From assembly GCA_029006135.1 (NCBI GenBank), contig JAQXGE010000051.1, forward strand, positions 1 to 53,528: a stretch of 53,528 bases of DNA, given 5' to 3'. The notes under the pieces were generated by a model. It saw only the letters and a list, made by a program, of their open reading frames with translations. It did not search any database and had not been told where the DNA came from. A program made the position numbers and the translations under genes. Below, piece after piece: positions 2,137 to 13,516 of this stretch. How positions within the stretch are numbered: the first letter of the stretch is position 1; the number at the start of each line of letters is the position of its first letter. Origin of the DNA: Oscillospiraceae bacterium. Lineage in GTDB: Bacteria > Bacillota > Clostridia > Oscillospirales > Ruminococcaceae.

Positions 2137-3015
2137 ATGGCAGAACAACGCAGCAGCCAGACCCCCGCCGCGCAGGAATGGACAACCGTTATCCGTCCCC
2201 GCACCGGATGGTTTGACATCGACCTCAAGGAGCTTTGGCGCTACCGCGACCTGATCGTGATGTTTGTCAAGCGAAATTTCACCGTCACTTACAAACAGAC
2301 AATCTTAGGACCTCTGTGGATTATCCTCAATCCCCTCATCACGACCGTACTGTTCAACGTGGTGTTCGGCGGCATCGCGGGGCTTTCCACCGATGGCACT
2401 CCCTCCTTCCTGTTTTATATGGCGGGCAACACGGTCTGGACCTTCTTTGCCTCCTGCATCAACAATACTGCCAACACTTTTGTGGCCAACAGCCAAGTGT
2501 TTGGCAAGGTGTATTTTCCCCGCCTGACAACCCCTATCAGCCAGGTGCTGACGAGCCTGATCAATTTTCTCATCCAGTTTGTGATGTTCGCCATCTTCTG
2601 GATTTATTTTGCCGTGACCGGGGCAAACATTCACCTGACCGCCTGGATGTGGGCGGTGCCGCTGGTCATTCTGGAGGTCATACTGCTGGGTCTGGGCGTG
2701 GGCATTATCGTCTCGGCACTGACCACCAAGTACCGCGACCTTGCCATCGCGGTGAGTTTCGGCGTACAGCTCTGGATGTATATCTCCCCGGTGGTTTATC
2801 CCCTGTCGAGCCTGGACGCTTCTCCCCGGCTCAAGGCTCTTATGCGTCTCAATCCCATGACGGCTCCCATTGAGGTGTTCCGCATGGCAACGCTCGGCAC
2901 AGGCACTGTGGAAGTAGGCAACCTGATTTACAGCATGGTCTTTACGCTGGCCGCGCTGGTATTGGGTGTCGTGCTGTTCAGCCGAATTGAAAAGACCTTT
3001 ATGGATACCGTGTAA
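2137..3015 (+). CDS. ABC-2 type polysaccharide export permease (Wzm/TagG-like)
   Basis: Membrane subunit of an ABC exporter that flips a lipid-linked glycan across the cytoplasmic membrane. The 292-residue product has the family layout: a soluble N-terminus, the amphipathic stretch LWRYRDLIVMFVKRNFTVTYKQT that begins the ABC2_membrane domain, and about six hydrophobic segments, with ILGPLWIILNP and the conserved YRDLAIAVSFGVQLWMYISPVVYPLS in the C-terminal half, as in TagG/Wzm/RfbD proteins. Start ATG is preceded by AGAAAGGGA. The ATPase gene begins 15 bases downstream, so the two subunits are translated together. The exported substrate is not known; the rest of the operon points to a glycan capped or modified with a CMP-activated sugar. 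Confidence 0.9.
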   Translation: MAEQRSSQTPAAQEWTTVIRPRTGWFDIDLKELWRYRDLIVMFVKRNFTVTYKQTILGPLWIILNPLITTVLFNVVFGGIAGLSTDGTPSFLFYMAGNTVWTFFASCINNTANTFVANSQVFGKVYFPRLTTPISQVLTSLINFLIQFVMFAIFWIYFAVTGANIHLTAWMWAVPLVILEVILLGLGVGIIVSALTTKYRDLAIAVSFGVQLWMYISPVVYPLSSLDASPRLKALMRLNPMTAPIEVFRMATLGTGTVEVGNLIYSMVFTLAALVLGVVLFSRIEKTFMDTV

Positions 3016-3030
3016 GGGAGGGTGCGTGCA

Positions 3031-4317
3031 ATGGAACAGAAAATGGACGAACGCGTACCCGTCATTGAAGTACGCGGACTGAAAAAGCAATACCGTCTGG
3101 GCCAGATTGGCGGCGGCACTCTCACCCACGACCTGCAAAGCTGGTGGGCGCGGGTGCGCGGCAAGGAGGACCCGAACACCATCATTGGAACCGATGCGCG
3201 GCTCTTTGGCAAGACCTTTATGGCGCTCAACGGCGTGGACCTGACGGTGTACAAGGGCGAAGCCTTAGGCATTATCGGGCGCAACGGTGCAGGCAAATCC
3301 ACCCTGCTCAAGATTCTTTCCCGCATTACTGCCCCCACGGAAGGCGAGATTCGCCTCAAAGGCCGGGTTGCCTCGATGCTCGAAGTTGGCACCGGGTTCA
3401 ACAACGAAATGACCGGACGGGAAAATATCTATATGAACGGGGCCATCCTTGGCATGACCAAGGCAGAAGTAGACTCCAAAATTGATCAGATTATCGAGTT
3501 TTCGGAATGCGGTGACTTTATTGATACTCCCGTCAAGCGGTATTCCAGCGGTATGTTCGTCAAGCTGGCTTTTGCGGTGGCGGCTCATCTGGACAGTGAG
3601 ATTATGGTCATGGACGAGGTCCTGGCCGTGGGCGATATGAAGTTCCAGCAGAAATGTCTGGGCAAGATGAGCGATGTGGCTGGTCAGGAAGGCCGCACCG
3701 TCCTGTACGTCAGCCATAACATGAGCACCATCCGTCAGCTCTGCACCCGCTGTGTTGTGCTTGACAAGGGCCGCGTTATCTTTGACGGCGATGTGGAGCA
3801 GGCCATTGCGGTCTATATGGAAACCACCGACGTGAACGTGGTCCATTACGATTTGGCAGATGTTTCCCGCATGACTTCCAGCGCAGGCAAGCGGCTTCGG
3901 CTTGAAACACTGGACTTTGTGGGCAAGGAATCCAGCGTCTTTGCTGACACCGAGAAAATGCGGGTCCGCATCACCTGGCGGGTGTCTGAGCCGTTTGCGG
4001 GCATCCACCTCAAACTGAACCTGCATTTTCGCGACTCGACACCGGTCGGCATCACCCACCCGGTCAATCTGGGCGCGGCCGAGCCGGGAAAACTCTACAC
4101 AACCGAATTTGAGTTTGACCCCTCTCTGCTCGGTGAGGGACAGTATTTCTTCTATCTGGATGTTTTTGACGGCGCACTGGCGCAGGCCGTTTGTTTGGAT
4201 AAGCCTGTGACCGAGTTTGCATTTGAAGTGACCAATGGTGACCTGACCATGCCGGAATGGGCCGCCGGGTGGGGACGCATCCACTTCCCGCCGGTCAAAG
4301 TGCTGGAGAACGGGTAA
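3031..4317 (+). CDS. ABC polysaccharide export ATPase with C-terminal Wzt-like domain
   Basis: Cytoplasmic ATPase partner of the preceding permease. Residues about 1-250 are the nucleotide-binding domain: Walker A GRNGAGKST (83-91), a signature in which YSSGM (171-175) stands in for LSGGQ as is usual in Wzt/TagH proteins, Walker B IMVMDE (191-196) and the switch His in YVSHN. Residues about 265-428 are an extra beta-rich domain resembling the C-terminal domain of Wzt, which in O-antigen exporters recognises the modified end of the glycan chain. I chose ATG 3031 because AGGGAGG lies at the right distance; the in-frame GTG nine bases earlier would sit directly on that site. The C-terminal domain implies that chain-end modification is read before export, which fits the sugar-activation genes downstream. 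Confidence 0.88.
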   Translation: MEQKMDERVPVIEVRGLKKQYRLGQIGGGTLTHDLQSWWARVRGKEDPNTIIGTDARLFGKTFMALNGVDLTVYKGEALGIIGRNGAGKSTLLKILSRITAPTEGEIRLKGRVASMLEVGTGFNNEMTGRENIYMNGAILGMTKAEVDSKIDQIIEFSECGDFIDTPVKRYSSGMFVKLAFAVAAHLDSEIMVMDEVLAVGDMKFQQKCLGKMSDVAGQEGRTVLYVSHNMSTIRQLCTRCVVLDKGRVIFDGDVEQAIAVYMETTDVNVVHYDLADVSRMTSSAGKRLRLETLDFVGKESSVFADTEKMRVRITWRVSEPFAGIHLKLNLHFRDSTPVGITHPVNLGAAEPGKLYTTEFEFDPSLLGEGQYFFYLDVFDGALAQAVCLDKPVTEFAFEVTNGDLTMPEWAAGWGRIHFPPVKVLENG

Positions 4318-4318
4318 A

Positions 4319-5269
4319 ATGGGCAATATTTATCTGTGTCATACTCCCTACCATGTCCTGATTGCGCTGATTCGGGCAATGCGCAGCCGTCCCATGCCCT
4401 CCCGGCTGGTGCTGAGTGAGAGTGTTCCCGAGGCCTTGTCGCTGCGTGAGCGCCTGCTCGCCGCCTGCCCGGGACTGTGGGAGGACATCACCATTGTCAA
4501 CGAGGAACTTCTGGACGCCCAGAATTCCGAAAGCGCCTTTTACCGCCTGCGTCACCCCGGGCGCAGGCCTTATTTCAGTCTGCCCAAAGAAGGGCGGGTG
4601 TATATCAGCAATGACTGGAGCGCATTGGGGCGGTATTTGCAGCGCGAGCGCCGGGTATACACGCTGTGTGAGGACACCTGCGGCGGCACACTGGACCCTG
4701 ACCAGCATCTGCTCGAAAAACAGCGCGCCGGTGCAAAGGGGCGGTATCTCTATTGGGGTGACAGCCCCTGCTGCCGCACGGTGGAAAGTGAGGATGCCGC
4801 ACAGTGCACTTTGTTTTCTCCGGACAAGGTGGCACAGTTTTCAGCCAAAAAGCTGCTGGCCGAATTGAGCGAGGAAGAAAAGAGTGCTGTGCGCGCCGTA
4901 TTCCTCACTGCACCGCTGCCTGAAAATACTGCCGGAGCCACGCTGCTTCTGCCGCGCAGCTTTGTGCAGGACGGCTTGATGGACCAGGCGGAGCAGGATG
5001 CCATTTTTCGCGCTGTGGCGGAAAAATATACCGCGGGTCCTCTTTTTATCAAGACGCATCCGCGGGATGATACCGATTACGCAGCACTGTTCCCCGGAGC
5101 GGTCATTCTGCCGCGCACTATGCCGAGTGAGGTGCTCAACTTTTGTCTGCCCTTCCGGTTCCGCCGGGCGGTAACCGTACAATCCTGGGTCCTGCGGGGC
5201 TTTACAGCCGCAGAAGAAACCGTCTTTCTTACCCTCGAACAAGCAAAGGAACTGGTGAATCAGAAATGA
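4319..5269 (+). CDS. Glycosyltransferase-52-like protein (sialyltransferase/ulosonate-transferase fold)
   Basis: Probable CMP-sugar-dependent glycosyltransferase. Length (316 aa) and motif order resemble GT52 lipooligosaccharide sialyltransferases and their polysialyltransferase relatives. The N-terminus has the CHTPYHVLIALI strand-loop, a mid-protein TLCEDTCGG (115-123) resembles the EDG motif, KTHPRD (245-250) matches the conserved basic HPR/KPHPRD motif that binds CMP-sugar, and MPSEVL (268-273) fits the late Ser/Glu region. It starts one base after the Wzt stop and its own stop overlaps the next start as ATGA, so it is tightly coupled to the CMP-sugar synthetase. No membrane segment is evident, so it would act on the cytoplasmic face. 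Donor and acceptor are inferred only from motifs and neighbours. Confidence 0.65.
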   Translation: MGNIYLCHTPYHVLIALIRAMRSRPMPSRLVLSESVPEALSLRERLLAACPGLWEDITIVNEELLDAQNSESAFYRLRHPGRRPYFSLPKEGRVYISNDWSALGRYLQRERRVYTLCEDTCGGTLDPDQHLLEKQRAGAKGRYLYWGDSPCCRTVESEDAAQCTLFSPDKVAQFSAKKLLAELSEEEKSAVRAVFLTAPLPENTAGATLLLPRSFVQDGLMDQAEQDAIFRAVAEKYTAGPLFIKTHPRDDTDYAALFPGAVILPRTMPSEVLNFCLPFRFRRAVTVQSWVLRGFTAAEETVFLTLEQAKELVNQK

Positions 5270-5997
5270 AAATTCTTGGTGTGATTCCTGCCCGCTACGC
5301 AAGTTCCCGGATGCCGGGCAAGCCGATTGCGGATATTCTTGGCAAACCCATGATCTGGTGGGTCTACAGGGAAGCAAAAAAAAGCTCCCGTCTTTCCGAT
5401 GTGGTCATTGCCACCGATGACGACCGCATTGCGGATGTCTGCGAGAAGTACGGCATGGCCTATGTGATGACCAGCCCTGACCACGATACCCCCACCGGAC
5501 GCATCTGGGAAGTTACCACCAAAATGGATGCTGACCTCTACCTTCAGGTCATGGGGGATGAACCGCTCATCAGCGCGGACGCCTTTGACCTGATTTTGCC
5601 TGAGACGCTGCCCGATGACCCTTACTATGTGGCGGTGTTGACCAACCGGATGGAGCATCCTGCCGACGTGATTGACTTTTCCAATCAAAAGGTCGTCACC
5701 AACGCGGCGCGGGAAATCCTGATGATCTCCCGTTCCCCCATCCCCTACCCCAAAGCCACGCTGGATTTTGAGTATGAAAAAGTGACCGGCATCCAGCTCT
5801 ATTCCAAACAGGCCCTGGCGTTTTACCATGACACGCCGAAATCCCTGCTGGAAAAGGCGGAGGAGAACGATATGATGCGCTTTGTGGAAAATGGCCACAA
5901 AGTTCACGCCATCCTCAGCCCTTACAAGACCGTCAGCGTGGATACGCCGAAGGATCTTGCGCTGGTGAGTGAAATTCTGCGCGAGCGCGGTGAATAA
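5266..5997 (+). CDS. kdsB: CMP-ulosonate cytidylyltransferase, KdsB-like
   Basis: Transfers CMP from CTP to a 2-keto-3-deoxy sugar acid, giving the CMP-sugar used by a transferase. The 243-residue product has the KdsB layout: IPARYASSRMPGKPIADILGKPMI (residues 7-30, nucleotide-binding loop), IATDDDRI (48-55), and the metal-binding MGDEPLI (96-102). It departs from typical KdsB at two conserved points: HDTPTGRIWEV instead of the usual SGT(D/E)R region, and LQVMGDEP instead of NVQGDEP. The natural sugar may therefore not be Kdo. The start ATG overlaps the previous stop by four bases. Kdo is a Gram-negative hallmark, yet nothing else here suggests an outer membrane. The cytidylyltransferase fold is secure; the substrate is open. 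Confidence 0.8.
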   Translation: MKILGVIPARYASSRMPGKPIADILGKPMIWWVYREAKKSSRLSDVVIATDDDRIADVCEKYGMAYVMTSPDHDTPTGRIWEVTTKMDADLYLQVMGDEPLISADAFDLILPETLPDDPYYVAVLTNRMEHPADVIDFSNQKVVTNAAREILMISRSPIPYPKATLDFEYEKVTGIQLYSKQALAFYHDTPKSLLEKAEENDMMRFVENGHKVHAILSPYKTVSVDTPKDLALVSEILRERGE

Positions 5998-6036
5998 GAC
6001 CGTCCGCGCACCAAGATGAAAGGAACGCAAACGGCT

Positions 6037-7608
6037 ATGGCCAACGTAAAGCTATTGGACTGCACCCTGCGGGACGGCGGTTATGTCAATGACTGGCGGT
6101 GGGGATTCTCCACGGCGCGGGATATTATTGACACGCTGACCCGGGCGGGAACTGACATTGTAGAAGTCGGTTTTCTCCGCAACACCGAGAAATATTCTCC
6201 CGATGTGACGGTATGCAACACCATCGAGGAGCTGAATCGCCTGCTGCCCGCAAACACCGGACACACGATGTACAGCGGCATGGCTATGCGCTCCAACTAT
6301 GACATTGCCAAGCTCTCCCCCTATGACGGCACCGGCATTGAGATGATCCGCATCACCGCCCATGACTATGACATACGCGAGGGCATGGACTTTGCCCGTG
6401 AGGTCAAGGCCCGCGGGTACAAACTCTCGATCAACCCCATCAACATCATGGGATACTCTGACCGGGATCTTTTGTGGATTTTGGATGAAGTCAATGCCAT
6501 CATGCCTTACCAGTTTTCCATCGTGGACACCTTCGGCAGTATGCGGCGCCGGGATCTTCAGCGCATTGTCAATCTGGTTGACCACAACCTTGCGCCTGAG
6601 ATTCGGGTGGGGCTGCATCTGCATGAAAATATGTCGATGAGTTTCTGCCTGGCGCAGGAGTTTTTGGATATGCATCTCAACCGGGACACCACGGTGGATG
6701 CCAGTCTGATGGGCATGGGGCGGATTCCCGGCAACCTGCCCGTTGAACTTGTCGCGGATTATATGAACGAAAATTTGGGCACCCACTACGATATTGATGA
6801 ACTGATGGATGCCATTCAGGACCACATTGCTCCTCTCAAAGGCGAAACGGCCTGGGGATATACGCCCGCCTATTTCCTGAGCGCACGGTACAATCTGCAC
6901 CGTGATTACGCGGAGCATTATCTGAACAAAGGTGATTTGACCAACCGGGACATCAACCATATTCTTGCCGTTTTTGACCGCAGCAAGGCGACTGCCTATG
7001 ACCCTGCCTATGCGGACCGGCTTTACCGGGAGTATCAGAACCGCGCCATTGACGATGCAAAAGCGCTGGAAACCCTGCGCGGTGCCTTTGGCGGCAAAAC
7101 GGTTCTGGTTCTGGCCCCGGGCGCTTCTCTGGGCAGCGAAGCGGGGCAGAAAACCGTGCTGGAAGCCGGAGCGGACTGTGTGGTTTCGGCCAATTTCTGC
7201 CCATCGTTCTGCGTGCCGGACTATGCCTTCTTCACCAACAGCAAACGCTATGAAAAGATTGACCCGGCCGCTCTGCCCTGCCCTGTCATCCTGACTTCCA
7301 ACCTGCGTCCCACCCCGGACAATGCGCTGGCGGTGGGATACGACCGTCTGAGCGGTCCCAATGCGCAGGACAGCACCTTAGGGGGCAACAGCGTACTCAT
7401 GCTGCTGCGCCTGCTGCGTCTGTGCGGAGCCGCAAAAGTCCTGCTGGCCGGTGCGGACGGCTACCGTCCCGATGCGCCCGCCTACGCGGATGACCGCCTG
7501 CACCCCCACACCCAGCGGGGCGCGGCCTACAATGCCGCAATGGCCGGTGCAATCCGCGCGTGCGGGCTGGAAGTACAGTTCCTGACCGCCAGCGAATATG
7601 CGCAGTGA
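6037..7608 (+). CDS. DRE-TIM (HMGL-like) aldolase fused to a C-terminal Rossmann-like domain
   Basis: N-terminal residues about 4-310 form an HMGL/4-hydroxy-2-oxovalerate-type aldolase: CTLRDGGY (9-16) supplies the catalytic Arg and a metal-ligand Asp, HLHEN (194-198) the HxH metal ligands, and GMGRIPGN (226-233) the late glycine-rich loop. This family makes or breaks C-C bonds with pyruvate or acetyl-CoA as nucleophile. Residues about 352-523 form a second domain (VLVLAPGASLG, DYAFFTNSKRY, KVLLAGADGY) resembling DUF115/GT42-like Rossmann folds, making the protein much longer than a normal aldolase. I prefer ATG 6037, behind AAAGGAA, over ATG 6016, which has no ribosome binding site. Position between a CMP-sugar synthetase and a KdsC-like phosphatase suggests synthesis of a 2-keto-3-deoxy sugar acid from pyruvate and a sugar aldehyde; this is inference. 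Confidence 0.75.
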   Translation: MANVKLLDCTLRDGGYVNDWRWGFSTARDIIDTLTRAGTDIVEVGFLRNTEKYSPDVTVCNTIEELNRLLPANTGHTMYSGMAMRSNYDIAKLSPYDGTGIEMIRITAHDYDIREGMDFAREVKARGYKLSINPINIMGYSDRDLLWILDEVNAIMPYQFSIVDTFGSMRRRDLQRIVNLVDHNLAPEIRVGLHLHENMSMSFCLAQEFLDMHLNRDTTVDASLMGMGRIPGNLPVELVADYMNENLGTHYDIDELMDAIQDHIAPLKGETAWGYTPAYFLSARYNLHRDYAEHYLNKGDLTNRDINHILAVFDRSKATAYDPAYADRLYREYQNRAIDDAKALETLRGAFGGKTVLVLAPGASLGSEAGQKTVLEAGADCVVSANFCPSFCVPDYAFFTNSKRYEKIDPAALPCPVILTSNLRPTPDNALAVGYDRLSGPNAQDSTLGGNSVLMLLRLLRLCGAAKVLLAGADGYRPDAPAYADDRLHPHTQRGAAYNAAMAGAIRACGLEVQFLTASEYAQ

Positions 7609-7625
7609 GCGGAAAGGAAACTGGC

Positions 7626-8138
7626 ATGATTGAACTTCTGGTCCTGGATGTGGACGGAACCATGACGGACGGCGGCGTTTACTATGACGCGGCCGGGAAT
7701 GAACTGAAGAAATTTGCCATCAAGGACGGAGCCGGCATCGTGCTGGCACGCGCGGCCGGGGTACGGGTGATGATCTGCACCGGCCGGGAGTGCGAGGCAG
7801 TGCGCCGCCGGGCTGCCGATTTGCATATTGATTATCTGTACCAGAATGTAGCGGACAAGGCCTCCTTCCTTCGCAGCTTTATGGAGGAGCATCGCCTGTG
7901 CCGGGCTCAGGTTGCCTACTGCGGCGATGACCTCAATGACCTGGCCGCCATGGCGCTGTGCGGATTTGTGGCCTGCCCGGCCGATGCGTCCGCTGCCGTG
8001 CAGCGCAAAGCGGATTTTGTGTGTGCACGGCGGGGCGGAGAAGGTGCCGTGCGGGATGCCGTTGAGGAGATACTGTCCCGGGACGGACGCTTTTCTGCCG
8101 CCGCGCTGACGGCTTTCGGCGTTGAGGCCGAACCGTAA
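7626..8138 (+). CDS. kdsC: KdsC-like HAD phosphatase (ulosonate-phosphate phosphatase)
   Basis: Small HAD phosphatase without a cap domain, 170 aa, the size of KdsC, which dephosphorylates Kdo-8-phosphate before CMP activation. Motif I is LVLDVDGTMTDGG (nucleophile Asp8, acid/base Asp10) and the family's GVYYDAAGNELKKFAIKDGAGI follows; motif II/III region is ICTGRE, and motif IV is GDDLND. The ATG is 17 bases after the aldolase stop and has an AAAGGAA site. Together with the aldolase and KdsB-like enzyme it completes the usual order condense, dephosphorylate, activate. The relatives NeuB-pathway phosphatases and MazG-linked phosphatases are possible, but the gene context favours a Kdo-type sugar. 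Confidence 0.82.
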   Translation: MIELLVLDVDGTMTDGGVYYDAAGNELKKFAIKDGAGIVLARAAGVRVMICTGRECEAVRRRAADLHIDYLYQNVADKASFLRSFMEEHRLCRAQVAYCGDDLNDLAAMALCGFVACPADASAAVQRKADFVCARRGGEGAVRDAVEEILSRDGRFSAAALTAFGVEAEP

Positions 8139-8165: not shown

Positions 8166-10784
8166 ATGACCCAGAAACATCATCCTGCCCCCGCAAAGAA
8201 GCCCCGCGAGCTGCTCACGGCCCTGTGTGTGGCTGGGGCCTGTTTTGCGGTGCTCCTGCTGGTCTGGCTGACCGTTGTGCGTCCCAACGCAGACAAAAGC
8301 CTTTCGGAGCGGGTATGCGATGAATACAGCCTTTACACCCTGATTGAGCCGGGCGGCTGCGCGGAGCAGACCTTTACAACGAGCAATGACCTGATTGTGA
8401 TGGGGTTTGTTTTTGGCGTTCAGGGCGGACAGCCCACCGGTGAACTTGAATTGGCGCTCTCGGACGCTGATACCGGCGAGGTGCTGGCCCATTCCACCGG
8501 CGATATGGCAGGCATTCTGCCGGGACAATATGTCGCATTGGGACTTGACCACACCGTTGAAGGTGCGGAGAACCGCCATTACCGCGTGACGCTGACCCCC
8601 CATTACGCCGGGGAGGGGCGCCTGTCCATCGGTCACAGTGACGGTGCGCTTCTGTGGAATGACCAGCTGACCGTCAACGGTGAGAATGTGGCCGGAACTT
8701 TGGCATTGCTCATCACTTATCGGCAAATCGGCGGTTTTTTGAGCCGTTTCTTTTTAGTAATCGGCGGACTGGTTTGTGTCGTTGTTTTCTTTGGCGTCTG
8801 GGCCGCCTTGCGGCGTCAGCTGGCGCTGCATCAGCTGACGTTTGTACTGGTTCTGGCATTCGGGATGCTTTACAGCTTTGTCCTTCCGCCCTATGCGGCT
8901 CCGGACGAAAAATACCATATCAATCAGTCCTTCACGCTGGCCTGCCAGTGGGCTAACCGGCTCAGCGATGACGAATGGAAGATGGGTCACGTTCCCATGG
9001 ACATGACCTACCGCCGTGAGCATGATGCCAATCCGCTTCTGCAGCAGGAGCGTACAACCGTATTTTCCTGGCAGGAGCTGTGCGGCAATCTGCTGACCAC
9101 CACATCGGATAGTTTTGACAGTCATGCGGCGCTTGAGGAACTTCAAACAGACCGCAATCCCACTTTGTATGTAATAAGCGCGGCGGCGGTCTTTGTGAGC
9201 TACCTGCTGCATCTGGGCTTTGTTCCAACCTTAATGCTGGGCCGCACGGCCAATCTGCTGGCTTTTGCTCTGCTGGCGGCCTTTGCGGTCAAGCGCGCTC
9301 CTTTTGGCAAGCGGGTATTTTTTGCCGTTTCTCTGCTGCCCATGACGCTTCATCTGGCCGCTTCTTTCAGCCGGGATTCCCTGCTGCTGGGATTAAGTTT
9401 TGCCTTTACGGCGCTCTGCCTTCAGGCAATTTTCGGTTGCCGGGATGGTCAGGTCCTGCCCGTATCAACCTGGCTGCCGCTGGTCTGCTTCGGCATATTG
9501 CTGGCTCCGGCCAAGCTGGTTTATCTGCCGCTCGCAGCACTGTTCCTTCTCATTCCGGGCAATCGTCTCGGCCGCAGCGCCAACCTCAAAAAAGCCGCCT
9601 ATCTGGCCGCCTGTGTCCTGCTGGCTGTGTGCATCAACAGTTCCCTGCTGAGCAATACCGTTATGGCCTCTGCCCCTGATACGGCCGTTGCCTCCGCGCA
9701 GGCTGCTCCTGCCTCGGTGACAGATGAGCCGAGCCGAACCGTTCACGCGGCTCCTCCTTCCGAACAGACGCAGGCCTCGGAGACCGAGTGCTGGCTTGAT
9801 ACCATTCCGCAGGAATACCGGGAAAATACAGCTTCCGCCTTTGTGCATCGCCTTTACTACTGCTCTGCCGGCATCACGGACATTCCGCTGCGCGAACTGG
9901 AATTCTGGGTTGATGCCCTGCAGGAGGGTGACGTGACCGCCGCCGTGCTGGGACAGAGCTTTTTCTTCAGCCCAGAGGAGTGTGAGAACTCCGCCCTCAC
10001 CGATGAGGAATTTATGCGTGCGGTCTCGCTGGTATATCTCAACCGCGATCTTATGCAGGACGCTCCCGAGATGTGCTGGGACCGTCTGAACAACGGTGAC
10101 CGGAGGCTTTTCTTCAAATCCATCTACGCCTGTGAGGAGGCCGCCGCGCTGCTTGCGCCCTGCCAAATCATTCCGGGCAATGAGGATGACCGCTATCCGC
10201 TTGACCGGGACGTTCTGATTGAGGAGGTCCAGGCGCTTCAGGCATTGAAAAAAGCGCAGAGTCAGCCCAGTGAGGAAGATCTGGTTTGCTACACGCCCGG
10301 CTACATCCTGCGCCATCTGCCCCAAACCATTCTGCTTGTGGTCCGTTCGGTGGTCGAGGACGCCGAGGGCTGGGTGCGCGGGTTAGTGGGCGGAACGCTG
10401 AGTTACAATTCGCTGAACATTTCCTGGATCTGGGTGATGGCGCTCTATCTGCTGCTCTTCCTGGCCGCTGTGCCGGCGAGGGATGTGGAAGCGCCGGGAC
10501 TGCCAACAGGGCGGTATCGCATCTGGTGTGCACTGGCCGCACTGGCCTGCTGTGCCTTGGCACTGGCCGGCTGCCTGGTTTGGACCCCCACCTACTACGA
10601 GACCATCTACGGGTTCCAAGGCCGCTATCTGCTGCCGGTGGTGCCGCTGCTGCTCCTCACCTGCCTGCCCCGCCGTCTGAGCGTGGAGTCCGGCGATGAT
10701 GCGGCAGTCAGCCTTGCCTGCGGACTGTGCCTTGTCAATGCCGGTGTGCTGATCAATGCCATGCTGACGGTGATTGCGCGATGA
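8166..10784 (+). CDS. DUF2142 family polytopic membrane protein (GT-C-like)
   Basis: Large membrane protein of 872 aa. After a basic N-terminus comes a first membrane segment (about residues 18-37), then an extracytoplasmic region of about 160 residues, then many hydrophobic segments. PPYAAPDEKYHINQS after the third segment is the signature of DUF2142, whose Asp-Glu pair just outside the membrane recalls the catalytic acidic residues of GT-C polyprenyl-phosphate-sugar transferases. A second soluble stretch of roughly 200 residues (about 500-700, Glu/Ala/Pro-rich) is followed by C-terminal membrane segments. RBS GGAGGG precedes the ATG. It probably transfers a sugar from a lipid carrier to the glycan outside the membrane, taking donor from the GT2 enzyme of the same operon; activity for DUF2142 is not established to my knowledge. 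Confidence 0.75.
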   Translation: MTQKHHPAPAKKPRELLTALCVAGACFAVLLLVWLTVVRPNADKSLSERVCDEYSLYTLIEPGGCAEQTFTTSNDLIVMGFVFGVQGGQPTGELELALSDADTGEVLAHSTGDMAGILPGQYVALGLDHTVEGAENRHYRVTLTPHYAGEGRLSIGHSDGALLWNDQLTVNGENVAGTLALLITYRQIGGFLSRFFLVIGGLVCVVVFFGVWAALRRQLALHQLTFVLVLAFGMLYSFVLPPYAAPDEKYHINQSFTLACQWANRLSDDEWKMGHVPMDMTYRREHDANPLLQQERTTVFSWQELCGNLLTTTSDSFDSHAALEELQTDRNPTLYVISAAAVFVSYLLHLGFVPTLMLGRTANLLAFALLAAFAVKRAPFGKRVFFAVSLLPMTLHLAASFSRDSLLLGLSFAFTALCLQAIFGCRDGQVLPVSTWLPLVCFGILLAPAKLVYLPLAALFLLIPGNRLGRSANLKKAAYLAACVLLAVCINSSLLSNTVMASAPDTAVASAQAAPASVTDEPSRTVHAAPPSEQTQASETECWLDTIPQEYRENTASAFVHRLYYCSAGITDIPLRELEFWVDALQEGDVTAAVLGQSFFFSPEECENSALTDEEFMRAVSLVYLNRDLMQDAPEMCWDRLNNGDRRLFFKSIYACEEAAALLAPCQIIPGNEDDRYPLDRDVLIEEVQALQALKKAQSQPSEEDLVCYTPGYILRHLPQTILLVVRSVVEDAEGWVRGLVGGTLSYNSLNISWIWVMALYLLLFLAAVPARDVEAPGLPTGRYRIWCALAALACCALALAGCLVWTPTYYETIYGFQGRYLLPVVPLLLLTCLPRRLSVESGDDAAVSLACGLCLVNAGVLINAMLTVIAR

Positions 10785-11926
10785 ATATTTGTTATTTTTC
10801 CGCACAGTACCTGCCCACTGTGGGCGGTGTGGAGCGGTATACTTGGAACCTTGCCAAAAAGACGGCCGCGGCTGGGCACCGGGCCATTGTTGTGACAAGC
10901 GCCTTGCCGGGCCTGCCCGCAAAGGAAACCGACCCGGACGGAATCACGATTCTGCGTCTGCCGGTGTGGCCGGTGATGAATGGGCGATTCCCTGTTCTGC
11001 GGCCTGGCAGGGAATTTTCTGCCCTGAGCCGCGCGCTGTGGGAGGAAAAAATTGACTTCTGCGTGATTCAGACGCGGATGTATGTGCAGAGTGTCTGGGC
11101 CGCAAGGGAATCACATCGGCGGGGCATCCCTGCGCTGGTCATCGACCATTCCACCGGATATATGCCGATGGGCGGCGGTGTGCTCGGCGCAGCGGGGCGG
11201 CTGTATGAACAGCTTGCCTGCCGAATGGTGCGCAGCACCGGCGTGCCTTTTTACGGCGTATCCGCCGCTGCCTGCCGCTGGCTCAAAACCTTTGGCATTA
11301 CTGCTGCCGGCACCATGCCCAACGCCGTGGACCTTGAATCTCTTCATGCTGAAATTCATGCGCCGGATGCTGTCAACTGGCGGGAGCGGCTCAGCCTGGG
11401 CGACAAAAAAATCGTAGCCTTTGCTGGGCGGCTCATCCCCGAAAAAGGGGCTCTGCTGCTGGCGCAGGCAGTGGCCAAACTGCCCAATACGGTGCTTCTG
11501 GCCGCCGGTTCAGGCCCCGATCAGGCCGAACTGGAAGCCTTGGGTGCCATTCCGCTGGGTGCTTTGCCGCATGACCAGGTGGTACAGCTGCTGGCGCAGG
11601 CCGATGTCTACTGCCTGCCCACCCGCTATGCTGAAGGCTTCCCCACAACGCTGCTGGAGGCAGCCGCCTGCGGGTGTCCCATCGTCTGCACCGCGACCGC
11701 CGGGACGGAGGAGCTTCTGCCCGGTCCGGAATACGGCACGGTACTGCCCGGTTCCCCCGCCGATTTGACGGCGGAACAGCTGCGCGCTGCGCTGTCCGAT
11801 GTCCTGAATGACCCTGACGGCGCGCACACACGCGCACAGGCCGCCTACCGCAATCTGTGCGGGCACTTTACATGGGACGCGGTATTTGCTAAAATAATGG
11901 AAATCATAAAAGAAAAAGGCTGCTGA
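10781..11926 (+). CDS. Glycosyltransferase family 4 (GT-B)
   Basis: Cytoplasmic retaining glycosyltransferase using a nucleotide-sugar donor. The N-terminus FSAQYLPTVGGVERYTWNLAK is the typical GT4 glycine-rich acceptor-side motif; IVAFAGRLIPEKGALLLAQA begins the donor domain; and EGFPTTLLEAAACGCPIVCT contains the EX7E donor-binding motif. Length is 381 aa, normal for the family. The ATG overlaps the DUF2142 stop as ATGA, so translation is coupled. The sugar cannot be read from the sequence. Confidence 0.9.
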   Translation: MNICYFSAQYLPTVGGVERYTWNLAKKTAAAGHRAIVVTSALPGLPAKETDPDGITILRLPVWPVMNGRFPVLRPGREFSALSRALWEEKIDFCVIQTRMYVQSVWAARESHRRGIPALVIDHSTGYMPMGGGVLGAAGRLYEQLACRMVRSTGVPFYGVSAAACRWLKTFGITAAGTMPNAVDLESLHAEIHAPDAVNWRERLSLGDKKIVAFAGRLIPEKGALLLAQAVAKLPNTVLLAAGSGPDQAELEALGAIPLGALPHDQVVQLLAQADVYCLPTRYAEGFPTTLLEAAACGCPIVCTATAGTEELLPGPEYGTVLPGSPADLTAEQLRAALSDVLNDPDGAHTRAQAAYRNLCGHFTWDAVFAKIMEIIKEKGC

Positions 11927-11957: not shown

Positions 11958-12677
11958 ATGTCAAAGCTACTGATTGTCATTCCTGCGTACAATGAGGAGG
12001 AAAGCATCGTCCGGGTCGTGGAGGACCTGATAGAGCGCTTTCCCCAATATGATTATGTGGTTGTCAACGACGGCAGCCGGGATAAGACCGCAGCCGTCTG
12101 CCGTGAGCATGGATTTCATCTCATCGACCTGCCGGTAAACCTTGGTCTGGCGGGTGCCTTCCAGACCGGGCTTCGCTACGCGGCAGAGAATGGATATGAC
12201 TGCGCCATGCAGTTCGATGCCGATGGTCAGCACAAACCAGAGTACATTCCTGCCATGCTGGCCGAACTTGAAGACGGCGCGGATATTGTCATTGGCAGCC
12301 GCTTTCTCACGGTGAAGAAGCCAAAAAGTCTTCGGATGCTGGGCAGCTACATCATCAGTTGGTCCATCCGCCTTACCACAGGGCGCGCCATCTGCGACCC
12401 AACCTCGGGGATGCGGATGTTCAACCGTGCCATGATGGAGGAATTTGCACAGAACCTCAACTACGGGCCGGAGCCGGATACCATTAGTTACCTGATTAAG
12501 AATGGTGCAGTCGTGCGGGAAGTTCAGGTCACAATGGGCGAACGGACAGCGGGGCAGAGTTACCTGACGCTTTGGCGCAGTGCGGAATACATGGTCAAGA
12601 TGTCCATCTCCATTCTGCTGATTCAATGGTTCCGCAAACGCGACACCGAAACGCCTTATCCCGAAAGGAGCCTGTGA
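11958..12677 (+). CDS. Glycosyltransferase family 2, polyprenyl-phosphate sugar synthase-like
   Basis: GT-A enzyme of the DPMS/GtrB type, 239 aa. IPAYNEEESI (9-18) and VVNDGSRDKT are the nucleotide-binding motifs, QFDADGQH contains the metal-binding DXD, and SGMRMFNR is typical of polyprenyl-phosphate-hexose synthases. A hydrophobic segment near the C-terminus (MSISILLIQWF) could anchor it to the membrane. It probably loads a sugar onto undecaprenyl phosphate for use outside the cell by the DUF2142 protein. The next gene starts 3 bases after its stop. Confidence 0.88.
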   Translation: MSKLLIVIPAYNEEESIVRVVEDLIERFPQYDYVVVNDGSRDKTAAVCREHGFHLIDLPVNLGLAGAFQTGLRYAAENGYDCAMQFDADGQHKPEYIPAMLAELEDGADIVIGSRFLTVKKPKSLRMLGSYIISWSIRLTTGRAICDPTSGMRMFNRAMMEEFAQNLNYGPEPDTISYLIKNGAVVREVQVTMGERTAGQSYLTLWRSAEYMVKMSISILLIQWFRKRDTETPYPERSL

Positions 12678-12680
12678 CCC

Positions 12681-13040
12681 ATGCTTGATCAGCCCATTAT
12701 CCGTATCTGCCTGGTTGTGGGCAGTCTGCTCACCGCCTTTTATATTCTGCGCCGCGTCCGTCAGGCAAAAGTTCAGATTGAGGACACGCTGTTCTGGCTG
12801 TTTTTCAGCGCTGTGCTGCTGATTCTTGCCATCTTCCCCGGCATTGCCTACCGTGCGGCTTATCTGCTGGGCTTTCAGAGTCCCATCAACTTTGTGTATA
12901 TTGTTATCATCTTTTTGCTGCTGGCAAAACAGTTTTTCATGTCCATCCGCATCAGCCAGCTTGACAGCAAGGTACGCATTTTGACGGAGCGGGTTGCCCT
13001 CAACGAAGAAAAGGTAGAGCGGGAAAAATTAGATTTGTAA
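12681..13040 (+). CDS. DUF2304 domain membrane protein
   Basis: 119-residue protein with three hydrophobic segments (about 8-24, 36-56 and 69-87) followed by a charged, coiled-coil-like C-terminus (ISQLDSKVRILTERVALNEEK). This is the DUF2304 layout; such genes habitually follow a GT2 polyprenyl-phosphate sugar synthase, as here, with AAAGGAG ahead of the ATG. It is likely an accessory or anchoring subunit of the GT2 enzyme. It is the last gene of the operon; the -35 box of the next promoter overlaps its stop codon. Confidence 0.85.
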   Translation: MLDQPIIRICLVVGSLLTAFYILRRVRQAKVQIEDTLFWLFFSAVLLILAIFPGIAYRAAYLLGFQSPINFVYIVIIFLLLAKQFFMSIRISQLDSKVRILTERVALNEEKVEREKLDL

Positions 13041-13099: not shown

Positions 13100-13396
13100 A
13101 TGGCTTTTACCCCGACCCTGACTTATAAAGGCAAGCCGCTGGTTCGCTGCGGCAAAGATATTTATTACGGCTCGATGAGCGATCCGTATGTGGTGTATCT
13201 CCAGATTTTGACGACCCGCAAAGAAAATGATGTGGATGTGGCCGATAAAGTCCATATCGTACTGCTCTCCACCGATGAGAGCAAGCCCCTGCCGGAGCGC
13301 GTGGTTCGCCAGGCCAACAAATCCGGCGGCCTGTTCAATGCGCTGGAGTTTGGCAACATCATGCTGCGCAGCCAGCTGAAGGAAGCAAAGAAATAA
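13100..13396 (+). CDS. Conserved hypothetical protein, 98 aa
   Basis: Small soluble protein of unknown function. It begins at an ATG behind GAAAGAAGG and has its own promoter and a strong terminator, so it is a single-gene unit. The sequence is well balanced and looks folded: TYKGKPLVRCGKDIYYGSMS suggests an N-terminal beta-hairpin, then LQILTTRKENDVDVADKVHIVLLSTD, and a helical C-terminus. Nothing resembles a known catalytic or DNA-binding motif. I believe similar short proteins occur in Ruminococcaceae, but I cannot name the family. Confidence 0.75.
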   Translation: MAFTPTLTYKGKPLVRCGKDIYYGSMSDPYVVYLQILTTRKENDVDVADKVHIVLLSTDESKPLPERVVRQANKSGGLFNALEFGNIMLRSQLKEAKK

Positions 13397-13470
13397 CTTT
13401 GCTGTATGCAGTCAGGTCTTTCCCTGCCGGGCTGTCTCTTCGCCCGGTGCCTGCTGTAAATGAAAAAATA

Positions 13471-13516
13471 CCGCCCGCCTTTTGCAGAATATGCAAAAGG
13501 CGGGCGGCTGTTGTTT
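13471..13516 (+). terminator. Strong terminator between convergent genes
   Basis: A perfect 16-bp stem (13471-13486 with 13492-13507), five-base loop, then CTGTTGTTT. The A-rich stretch before the left arm could let it also act on the opposite strand for the zinc-ribbon gene. Confidence 0.88.

Follow-up and report, generated by a model that had tools for sequence, protein, structure and literature searches.

To our knowledge, the described cytidine monophosphate (CMP)-activated ulosonates, namely those of 3-deoxy-manno-octulosonic acid (Kdo), the sialic, legionaminic, and pseudaminic acids, and 2-keto-3-deoxynononic acid (KDN), are all made by pathways that start with a phosphoenolpyruvate (PEP)-dependent synthase. 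In the nonulosonate pathways a 2-keto-3-deoxy acid is activated with cytidine triphosphate, and the CMP-Kdo pathway comprises KdsD, KdsA, KdsC, and KdsB. We analyzed a 53,528-nucleotide stretch of DNA, contig JAQXGE010000051.1 of assembly GCA_029006135.1 from an Oscillospiraceae bacterium (the whole stretch is called the window below), in which genes for a KdsB-like cytidylyltransferase and a KdsC-like phosphatase enclose a gene for a two-domain aldolase of the HMGL-like (DRE-TIM) type. The window, contig 51 among the 87 of a 2.0-Mb genome, is Gemmiger-like: 10 named contigs carry the aldolase, 8 of them from Gemmiger, 1 from Subdoligranulum, and 1 from Faecalibacterium. We take the host to be a monoderm member of the Clostridia. 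From their gene content, Gemmiger-group gut bacteria appear to rely on a pyruvate aldolase to make a rare acidic sugar for their surface.

The aldolase and KdsA exclude one another among the relatives sampled. An even draw of 217 genomes from 126 genera of the family was called for KdsB (NF003952, E ≤1e-30, a threshold that a more divergent KdsB could escape), KdsA (TIGR01362 over cut-off), and the two-domain aldolase, giving 28, 3, and 35 genomes, respectively; many of the surveyed genomes are incomplete. The aldolase lies beside KdsB, with no KdsA, in 26 of the 28 KdsB genomes. In the other two, G042 and G665, the neighbors of KdsB are KdsA and KdsD, and the aldolase gave no match at E 1e-20; every one of the 28 thus has either KdsA or the aldolase, and none has both. 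Matched KdsB and aldolase segments in the 26 aldolase-type genomes are separated by no more than 185 bp (median 31), and KdsB co-occurs with the two-domain aldolase across the 217 genomes with a Fisher p of 8e-24 when relatedness is ignored. In G655, the remaining KdsA genome, KdsA neighbors KdsC and a candidate NeuA-like cytidylyltransferase (a phmmer match with no Pfam family). The replacement of KdsA by a DRE-TIM aldolase, put forward in the original prediction from the window alone, is thus visible between relatives, and the trio of aldolase, KdsB, and KdsC that it proposed to look for is recovered with a KdsC match in 16 of the 26 aldolase-type loci.

In the window's own genome, which is 84% complete, no KdsA was found (best score 116 bits against a cut-off of 314), and the best KdsD score was 29.5 bits against 203.7. 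Nor was KdsA over its cut-off in 13 other aldolase-type genomes. KdsD was over cut-off in none of 33 aldolase-type genomes (14 + 19) and is present in both genomes that pair KdsB with KdsA. Two of the aldolase-type genomes consist of a single contig, and neither KdsA nor KdsD passes its cut-off in them. Of 14 control genomes, 4 exceeded the cut-off of the KdsA model and 3 that of the KdsD model, with E. coli among the positives.

The same exchange can be followed within a single genus. Three genomes of genus g9 (G042, G665, and G591) all carry Wzm-Wzt-GT52-KdsB-...-KdsC-DUF2142; we take G042 and G665 to belong to the Ruminococcaceae, the family of the window. Between KdsB and KdsC lie KdsA and KdsD in G042 (NCBIfam) and G665 (phmmer), with the TIGR models in agreement, and the aldolase in G591. 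The DNA of G591 and G042 is 83% identical over 3.4 kb ending about 165 to 190 nt inside KdsB, and 82% identical over 2.1 kb starting at KdsC, with no blastn match (E 1e-10, one strand) between the KdsB interior and KdsC. The two KdsA-type genomes, G042 and G665, align without a break at 82% over 12.6 kb. Protein identity between G591 and G042 is 95% for Wzm, 94% for Wzt, 78% for GT52, 89% for KdsC, 84% for DUF2142, 92% for GT4, 99% for GT2, and 39% for KdsB. The second form of KdsB with the aldolase (2.2 kb) and KdsB-KdsA-KdsD (2.4 kb) are therefore alternative cassettes between the same flanks. Of all our evidence, this swap argues most strongly that the aldolase performs the role of the synthase, and it further suggests that the product is near enough to Kdo-8-phosphate to be accepted by almost the same phosphatase.

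The GT52-like protein runs against the trend of the genus, with G591 and G042 less alike (78%) than G042 and G665 (83%), whereas Wzm, Wzt, KdsC, DUF2142, GT4, and GT2 are all more similar between G591 and G042 than between G042 and G665. Its divergence is greatest in the last alignment columns, which may mark where the exchanged segment stops or reflect a switch of donor. In G042 (L053) and G665 (L092) the full KdsA-KdsD-KdsC-KdsB set is located within a Wzm/Wzt glycan locus. In another genus, g405, the aldolases of G653 and G575 are 91.5% identical over 528 residues, and the partner is KdsB in G653 and a NeuA-like CTP_transf_3 protein in G575 (22.6% identity). The constant partner is a CMP-transferase and not KdsB as such.

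We propose, with a probability of about 60%, that these genes encode a CMP-ulosonate pathway in which formation of the C-C bond has moved from PEP-dependent KdsA (with KdsD) to an aldolase that depends on pyruvate. This enzyme would join pyruvate to an aldose, most probably in phosphorylated form, yielding the phosphate of a 2-keto-3-deoxy sugar acid. The KdsC-like phosphatase would then strip the phosphate from the sugar acid and the KdsB-like enzyme would produce the CMP-sugar, whose sugar residue the GT52-like enzyme, encoded by an overlapping gene, would move onto a glycan exported by Wzm and Wzt.

PF00682, to which the N-terminal part of the aldolase belongs (residues 11–266, gathering cut-off 29 bits), contains synthases and lyases alike. 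The nearest curated models are 4-hydroxy-2-oxovalerate aldolases, all far under their cut-offs (67 of 229 bits; TIGR03217, 61 of 286). The original prediction, which named this class, had missed the C-terminal domain at residues ~358–530. Isopropylmalate synthase models score at most 20 bits and homocitrate synthase 22 bits, and with citramalate synthase included no score exceeds 22 bits against cut-offs above 400. All 39 KdsB-linked aldolases share Arg19, Asp20, His201, His203, and Asn240, which align as Arg-Asp, His-x-His, and Asn with DmpG (1nvm) and a putative Bacteroides aldolase (3dxi). We take the corresponding residues of DmpG to be those that bind the metal and pyruvate, and with this signature kept, metal-dependent activity with pyruvate is predicted. 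Because homologs begin there, the true start of the protein is probably the second ATG, at 6037. The C-terminal domain of the window aldolase, about 170 residues, has no Pfam match, and its profile matches to the SteA-like chain 9hmz (E 0.059) and the MptE chain 8sd5 (E 0.14) are both weak. For a GT42 or MptE identity of this domain there are hints at most: the window domain gave no PF01973 match over the gathering cut-off, and 1 of 11 members matched at E 0.022.

The KdsB-like gene was confirmed, with its previously given start corrected to 5266. Its product scores 217.6 bits against the NCBIfam subfamily NF003952 (cut-off 193) and remains below the kdsB-specific cut-offs (NF009905, 230 of 255; TIGR00466, 124 of 155). 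It had been noted to deviate at two conserved motifs, and one of these proves to be the site of E. coli Gln98, which one report describes as hydrogen-bonding the sugar (PMC2901514). Of 39 aldolase-linked KdsB sequences, 22 have Met at this position, 8 have Asn, and 9 have Gln; Gln is kept in both KdsA-linked KdsB and in KpsU, and Arg156 in 42 of 42 KdsB rows. All 14 Gemmiger KdsB in the set have Met. Gln98 was also tried as a marker separating KdsA-linked from all aldolase-linked KdsB and was rejected on account of the 9 that retain it.

The phosphatase exceeds the TIGR01670 cut-off, from which KdsC activity is predicted, and its best NCBIfam match is the KDN-9-phosphatase model NF058599 (153.6 bits, under the cut-off of 180). 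All 28 locus phosphatases (26 aldolase-type and 2 KdsA-type) have Arg at position 56, like E. coli KdsC and unlike KDN-9-phosphatase, which has Glu, and all 28 have Asp or Glu at position 67. Glu56/Lys67 is presumably the specificity pair of KDN-9-phosphate phosphatase. KDN as the product is not supported: the phosphatase label is under its cut-off, the two specificity positions differ, and the conserved Arg56 does not favor it. The GT52-like protein of the window is barely above the PF07922 gathering cut-off, and its orthologs in G042, G591, and G054 fall below it, at 16–19 bits.

Given that no KdsD turned up, we do not expect arabinose 5-phosphate here, and with Met in place of the sugar-binding Gln98 the Gemmiger sugar is probably Kdo-like without being Kdo. 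Were it Kdo itself, the aldolase would join pyruvate to arabinose or arabinose 5-phosphate and merely replace KdsA. The close identity of the phosphatases in the two forms of the g9 locus would fit such a route, as would Arg56 and the 9 aldolase-linked KdsB that keep Gln98. We nevertheless consider it unlikely, since KdsD, from which arabinose 5-phosphate is known to come, was found in none of the 33 aldolase-type genomes, KdsB was swapped along with the aldolase in G591, and Met or Asn stands at the Gln98 position in 30 of the 39 sequences.

Several findings weigh against the aldolase-based pathway as a whole. Tyr occupies the position of the DmpG His that we take to be the catalytic base in 38 of 39 KdsB-linked aldolases, and 6 of 26 aldolase-type loci have no phosphatase or kinase match in the reference set used. 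Nine two-domain aldolases of the family sample are without KdsB, and 4 of these have a thiamine diphosphate (ThDP) enzyme beside them or one gene away. The aldolase of G591 groups with those of G046 and G518 and its KdsB with the G044 type, and the KdsB partners of the aldolase belong to several lineages. Finally, NeuB is present at >200 bits in 30 of 33 genomes of the first sample that contain KdsB and the two-domain aldolase. The last point, with the NeuB and two likely 3-deoxy-arabino-heptulosonate 7-phosphate (DAHP) synthases of the window's own genome and the ThDP enzymes beside relatives of the aldolase, would fit a reading in which another source (NeuB, DAHP synthase, or uptake) feeds KdsB and KdsC and the aldolase carries out an unrelated step for the same glycan. 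That arrangement seems to us quite improbable given the exclusion with KdsA and the cassette swap. The original prediction would fall if a kdsA or neuB elsewhere in the genome supplied KdsB. No KdsA was found; there is one true NeuB, outside the operon, and it sits on contig 75 (L036:6821-14044) in a cluster of its own with a LegC-type aminotransferase, NeuC, and a CTP_transf_3 protein, with a DAHP-synthase-like gene nearby. NeuB exceeds 200 bits in 33 of 35 searched genus genomes and was not found at that score in 3 of the 33 KdsB-aldolase genomes (G025, 85% complete, G039, and G044). NeuB is therefore common but not needed, and is unlikely to be the supplier of KdsB. The two PF00793 proteins of the genome are far under the KdsA cut-off and are likely the DAHP synthases; similar proteins also occur in KdsA-type G042 and so do not explain the swap. 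Other chemistry of the DRE-TIM domain, either acyl-CoA condensation (e.g., to citramalate) or retro-aldol breakdown, would be in keeping with the mixed make-up of PF00682, but we regard it as very improbable in view of the nearest curated models, the negligible scores against the acyl-CoA synthase models, and the operon context.

The proposed aldolase-KdsB partnership was also surveyed in a first sample of 100 relatives, 35 of them, including the window's own genome, in the genus. KdsB (at least 79% identity) and the two-domain aldolase (at least 68%) occur together in 28 of the 35 and are both absent from the other 7. In 27 of the 28 the two genes share a strand and are separated by no more than ~0.25 kb; in the exception, G010, the gap is 1.3 kb and contains another open frame. 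A further pair, spaced by 0.7 kb, occurs in G030. KdsC is seen in 17 of 19 Gemmiger loci, some of which share a genome; it is absent from G010, and a contig end truncates one locus. The pair is also found in five other genera among the 100 relatives (G039, G044, G046, G054, and G059), and true KdsB occurs in 35 of the 100, with KdsA instead of the aldolase in G042 and neither beside it in G097, from another family. The KdsB-like gene of G097 (L054:9557-10303) groups with canonical KdsB in the tree and has no KdsA or aldolase match in 20 kb. Distances between KdsB sequences and between aldolase sequences correlate with r 0.92 over 39 loci and 0.85 over 23 nonredundant ones (0 of 2,000 permutations as high in each case), a correlation that is inflated by shared descent alone. 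Neither protein forms a single clade by its linkage: the tree contradicts one for aldolase-locus KdsB, and among the aldolases the KdsB-linked label changes 7 times in a 42-row tree, with several long branches in both.

The accessory genes vary. Besides those with KdsC, 3 of the 26 aldolase-type loci have an HAD-IA phosphatase and 1 a PfkB kinase. A kinase adjoins the aldolase in G111, from another family of the phylum, and has a relative in G596. Its nearest NCBIfam models are 2-keto-3-deoxy-sugar-acid kinases, under their cut-offs (547 of 700 and 234 of 440), which again points to 2-keto-3-deoxy acids. An L-ribulose-5-phosphate 4-epimerase-like gene is found in six loci (G054, G059, G574, G601, G652, and G670), called by NF006047 over cut-off for two and by phmmer for four.

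Of the KdsB-less two-domain aldolases, 3 lie beside another cytidylyltransferase and 2 at contig edges; with others near ThDP enzymes, the family as a whole is not confined to CMP-sugars and serves other pathways as well. One- or two-domain relatives near ThDP enzymes occur in surface-glycan loci (L048, L082, L094, L098, L100, and L101) and may represent a different pathway based on a pyruvate aldol. At L049:8381-15011 a single-domain aldolase and a ThDP enzyme lie within what by eye is a PEP-mutase phosphonate-like cluster. In a distant relative, L047, the aldolase, C-terminal domain, and HAD phosphatase are fused in one 802-residue frame; L047:4847-15689 (Gemmiger) also has a single-domain aldolase, a ThDP enzyme in two frames, KdsC, and four frames that match a NeuA-like cytidylyltransferase. 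The two-domain aldolase is found at full length on three Leisingera plasmids, one of which (L084) has it followed by an annotated 3-deoxy-manno-octulosonate cytidylyltransferase and an HAD hydrolase. Genes in GC-rich loci were called by homology and from raw match lists. An even draw of 398 genomes from the phylum contained the two-domain form (E ≤1e-25) in two besides the window's own, G111 and G457, the latter with no KdsB match within the 20 kb read, and the distribution of the aldolase-KdsB unit is patchy.

A wider reading, which we offer tentatively and at less than even odds, is that the aldolase founds a general PEP-independent CMP-ulosonate route, with interchangeable KdsB- or NeuA-like partners and phosphatases or kinases. 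It would lead to several 2-keto-3-deoxy acids, corresponding to the Gln, Met, and Asn98 types of KdsB, and in Gemmiger to an undescribed ulosonic acid in the surface glycan of a monoderm, with the C-terminal domain binding a nucleotide or the CMP-sugar.

The window operon consists of 10 genes on the + strand, from Wzm to DUF2304, none of them separated from the next by more than 31 bp with the starts chosen (Table 1). Its core order, Wzm-Wzt-GT52-KdsB-aldolase-KdsC-DUF2142, is intact and kept in relatives. The four genes on which the original prediction was built are intact where it placed them, and the ATGA overlap that it described is present, with the GT52 stop codon TGA at 5267–5269 and the KdsB ATG at 5266–5268. 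Pfam scans of the ten operon proteins likewise agree with it in giving no KdsA or NeuB. The 98-residue frame downstream may also be part of the operon.

Table 1. Features of the operon and its downstream end, in window coordinates.
Feature	Position	Strand	Evidence
Wzm-like ABC-2 permease, putative glycan exporter	2137..3015	+	PF01061 67 bits; relatives with same order
Wzt/TagH-like ATPase with C-terminal domain	3022..4317	+	PF00005 80 bits; Wzt_C 24.1, below cut-off 30.4
GT52/polysialyltransferase-like transferase, candidate CMP-ulosonate user	4319..5269	+	PF07922 29.3 bits (cut-off 26.1); PF07388 18.9 (below cut-off)
KdsB-like cytidylyltransferase, 243 aa	5266..5997	+	PF02348 134.8 bits; Met96 at E. 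coli Gln98 site, Arg156 retained
Two-domain aldolase, HMGL-like/DRE-TIM plus C-terminal domain without Pfam family	6016..7608	+	PF00682 62.2 bits; KdsB-adjacency survey
KdsC-like HAD phosphatase	7626..8138	+	TIGR01670 138 bits (cut-off 107); closest solved chain by sequence 3e81
DUF2142 membrane protein	8166..10784	+	PF09913 124 bits; locus-conserved
GT4 glycosyltransferase	10775..11926	+	PF00534 86.5 bits
GT2 glycosyltransferase	11958..12677	+	PF00535 104 bits
DUF2304 protein	12681..13040	+	PF10066 99 bits
98-aa open frame	13100..13396	+	By eye resembles 102-aa frame at same place in G042
Strong terminator-like hairpin	13470..13508	both strands listed	Pattern scan only

No description of the aldolase-KdsB-KdsC set was found among the listed titles and abstract starts of the open-licence literature. 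A pyruvate aldolase in place of the committed step, combined with so clean a swap, offers a ready test of how a surface sugar changes by exchange of one cassette. If the proposed pathway is correct, it would add a class of sugar to the surface of gut Firmicutes, and the aldolase and cytidylyltransferase could be used as a pair to make CMP-sugars without PEP.

Among known systems, the window aldolase shares with DmpG/MhpE and Bacteroides 3dxi the HMGL-like barrel and the Arg-Asp and His-x-His signature. It differs from DmpG/MhpE in its extra C-terminal domain, in scores far under the DmpG cut-offs, and in the Tyr that replaces the base His, and the Pfam scan of the ten operon proteins revealed no acetaldehyde dehydrogenase. 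The CMP-nonulosonate pathways (NeuB/NeuA, legionaminate, and KDN) resemble the locus in that the window phosphatase is nearest by sequence to the KDN-9-phosphatase chain 3e81, but the locus is without NeuB and its phosphatase has Arg, not Glu, at position 56. From the CMP-Kdo pathway the window differs in that no KdsA or KdsD was found in its genome, the two-domain aldolase occupies their slot, and KdsB is altered at Gln98; it nevertheless shares with that pathway the KdsC- and KdsB-like last steps, and the same locus in genus g9 carries the full set of KdsA, KdsB, KdsC, and KdsD.

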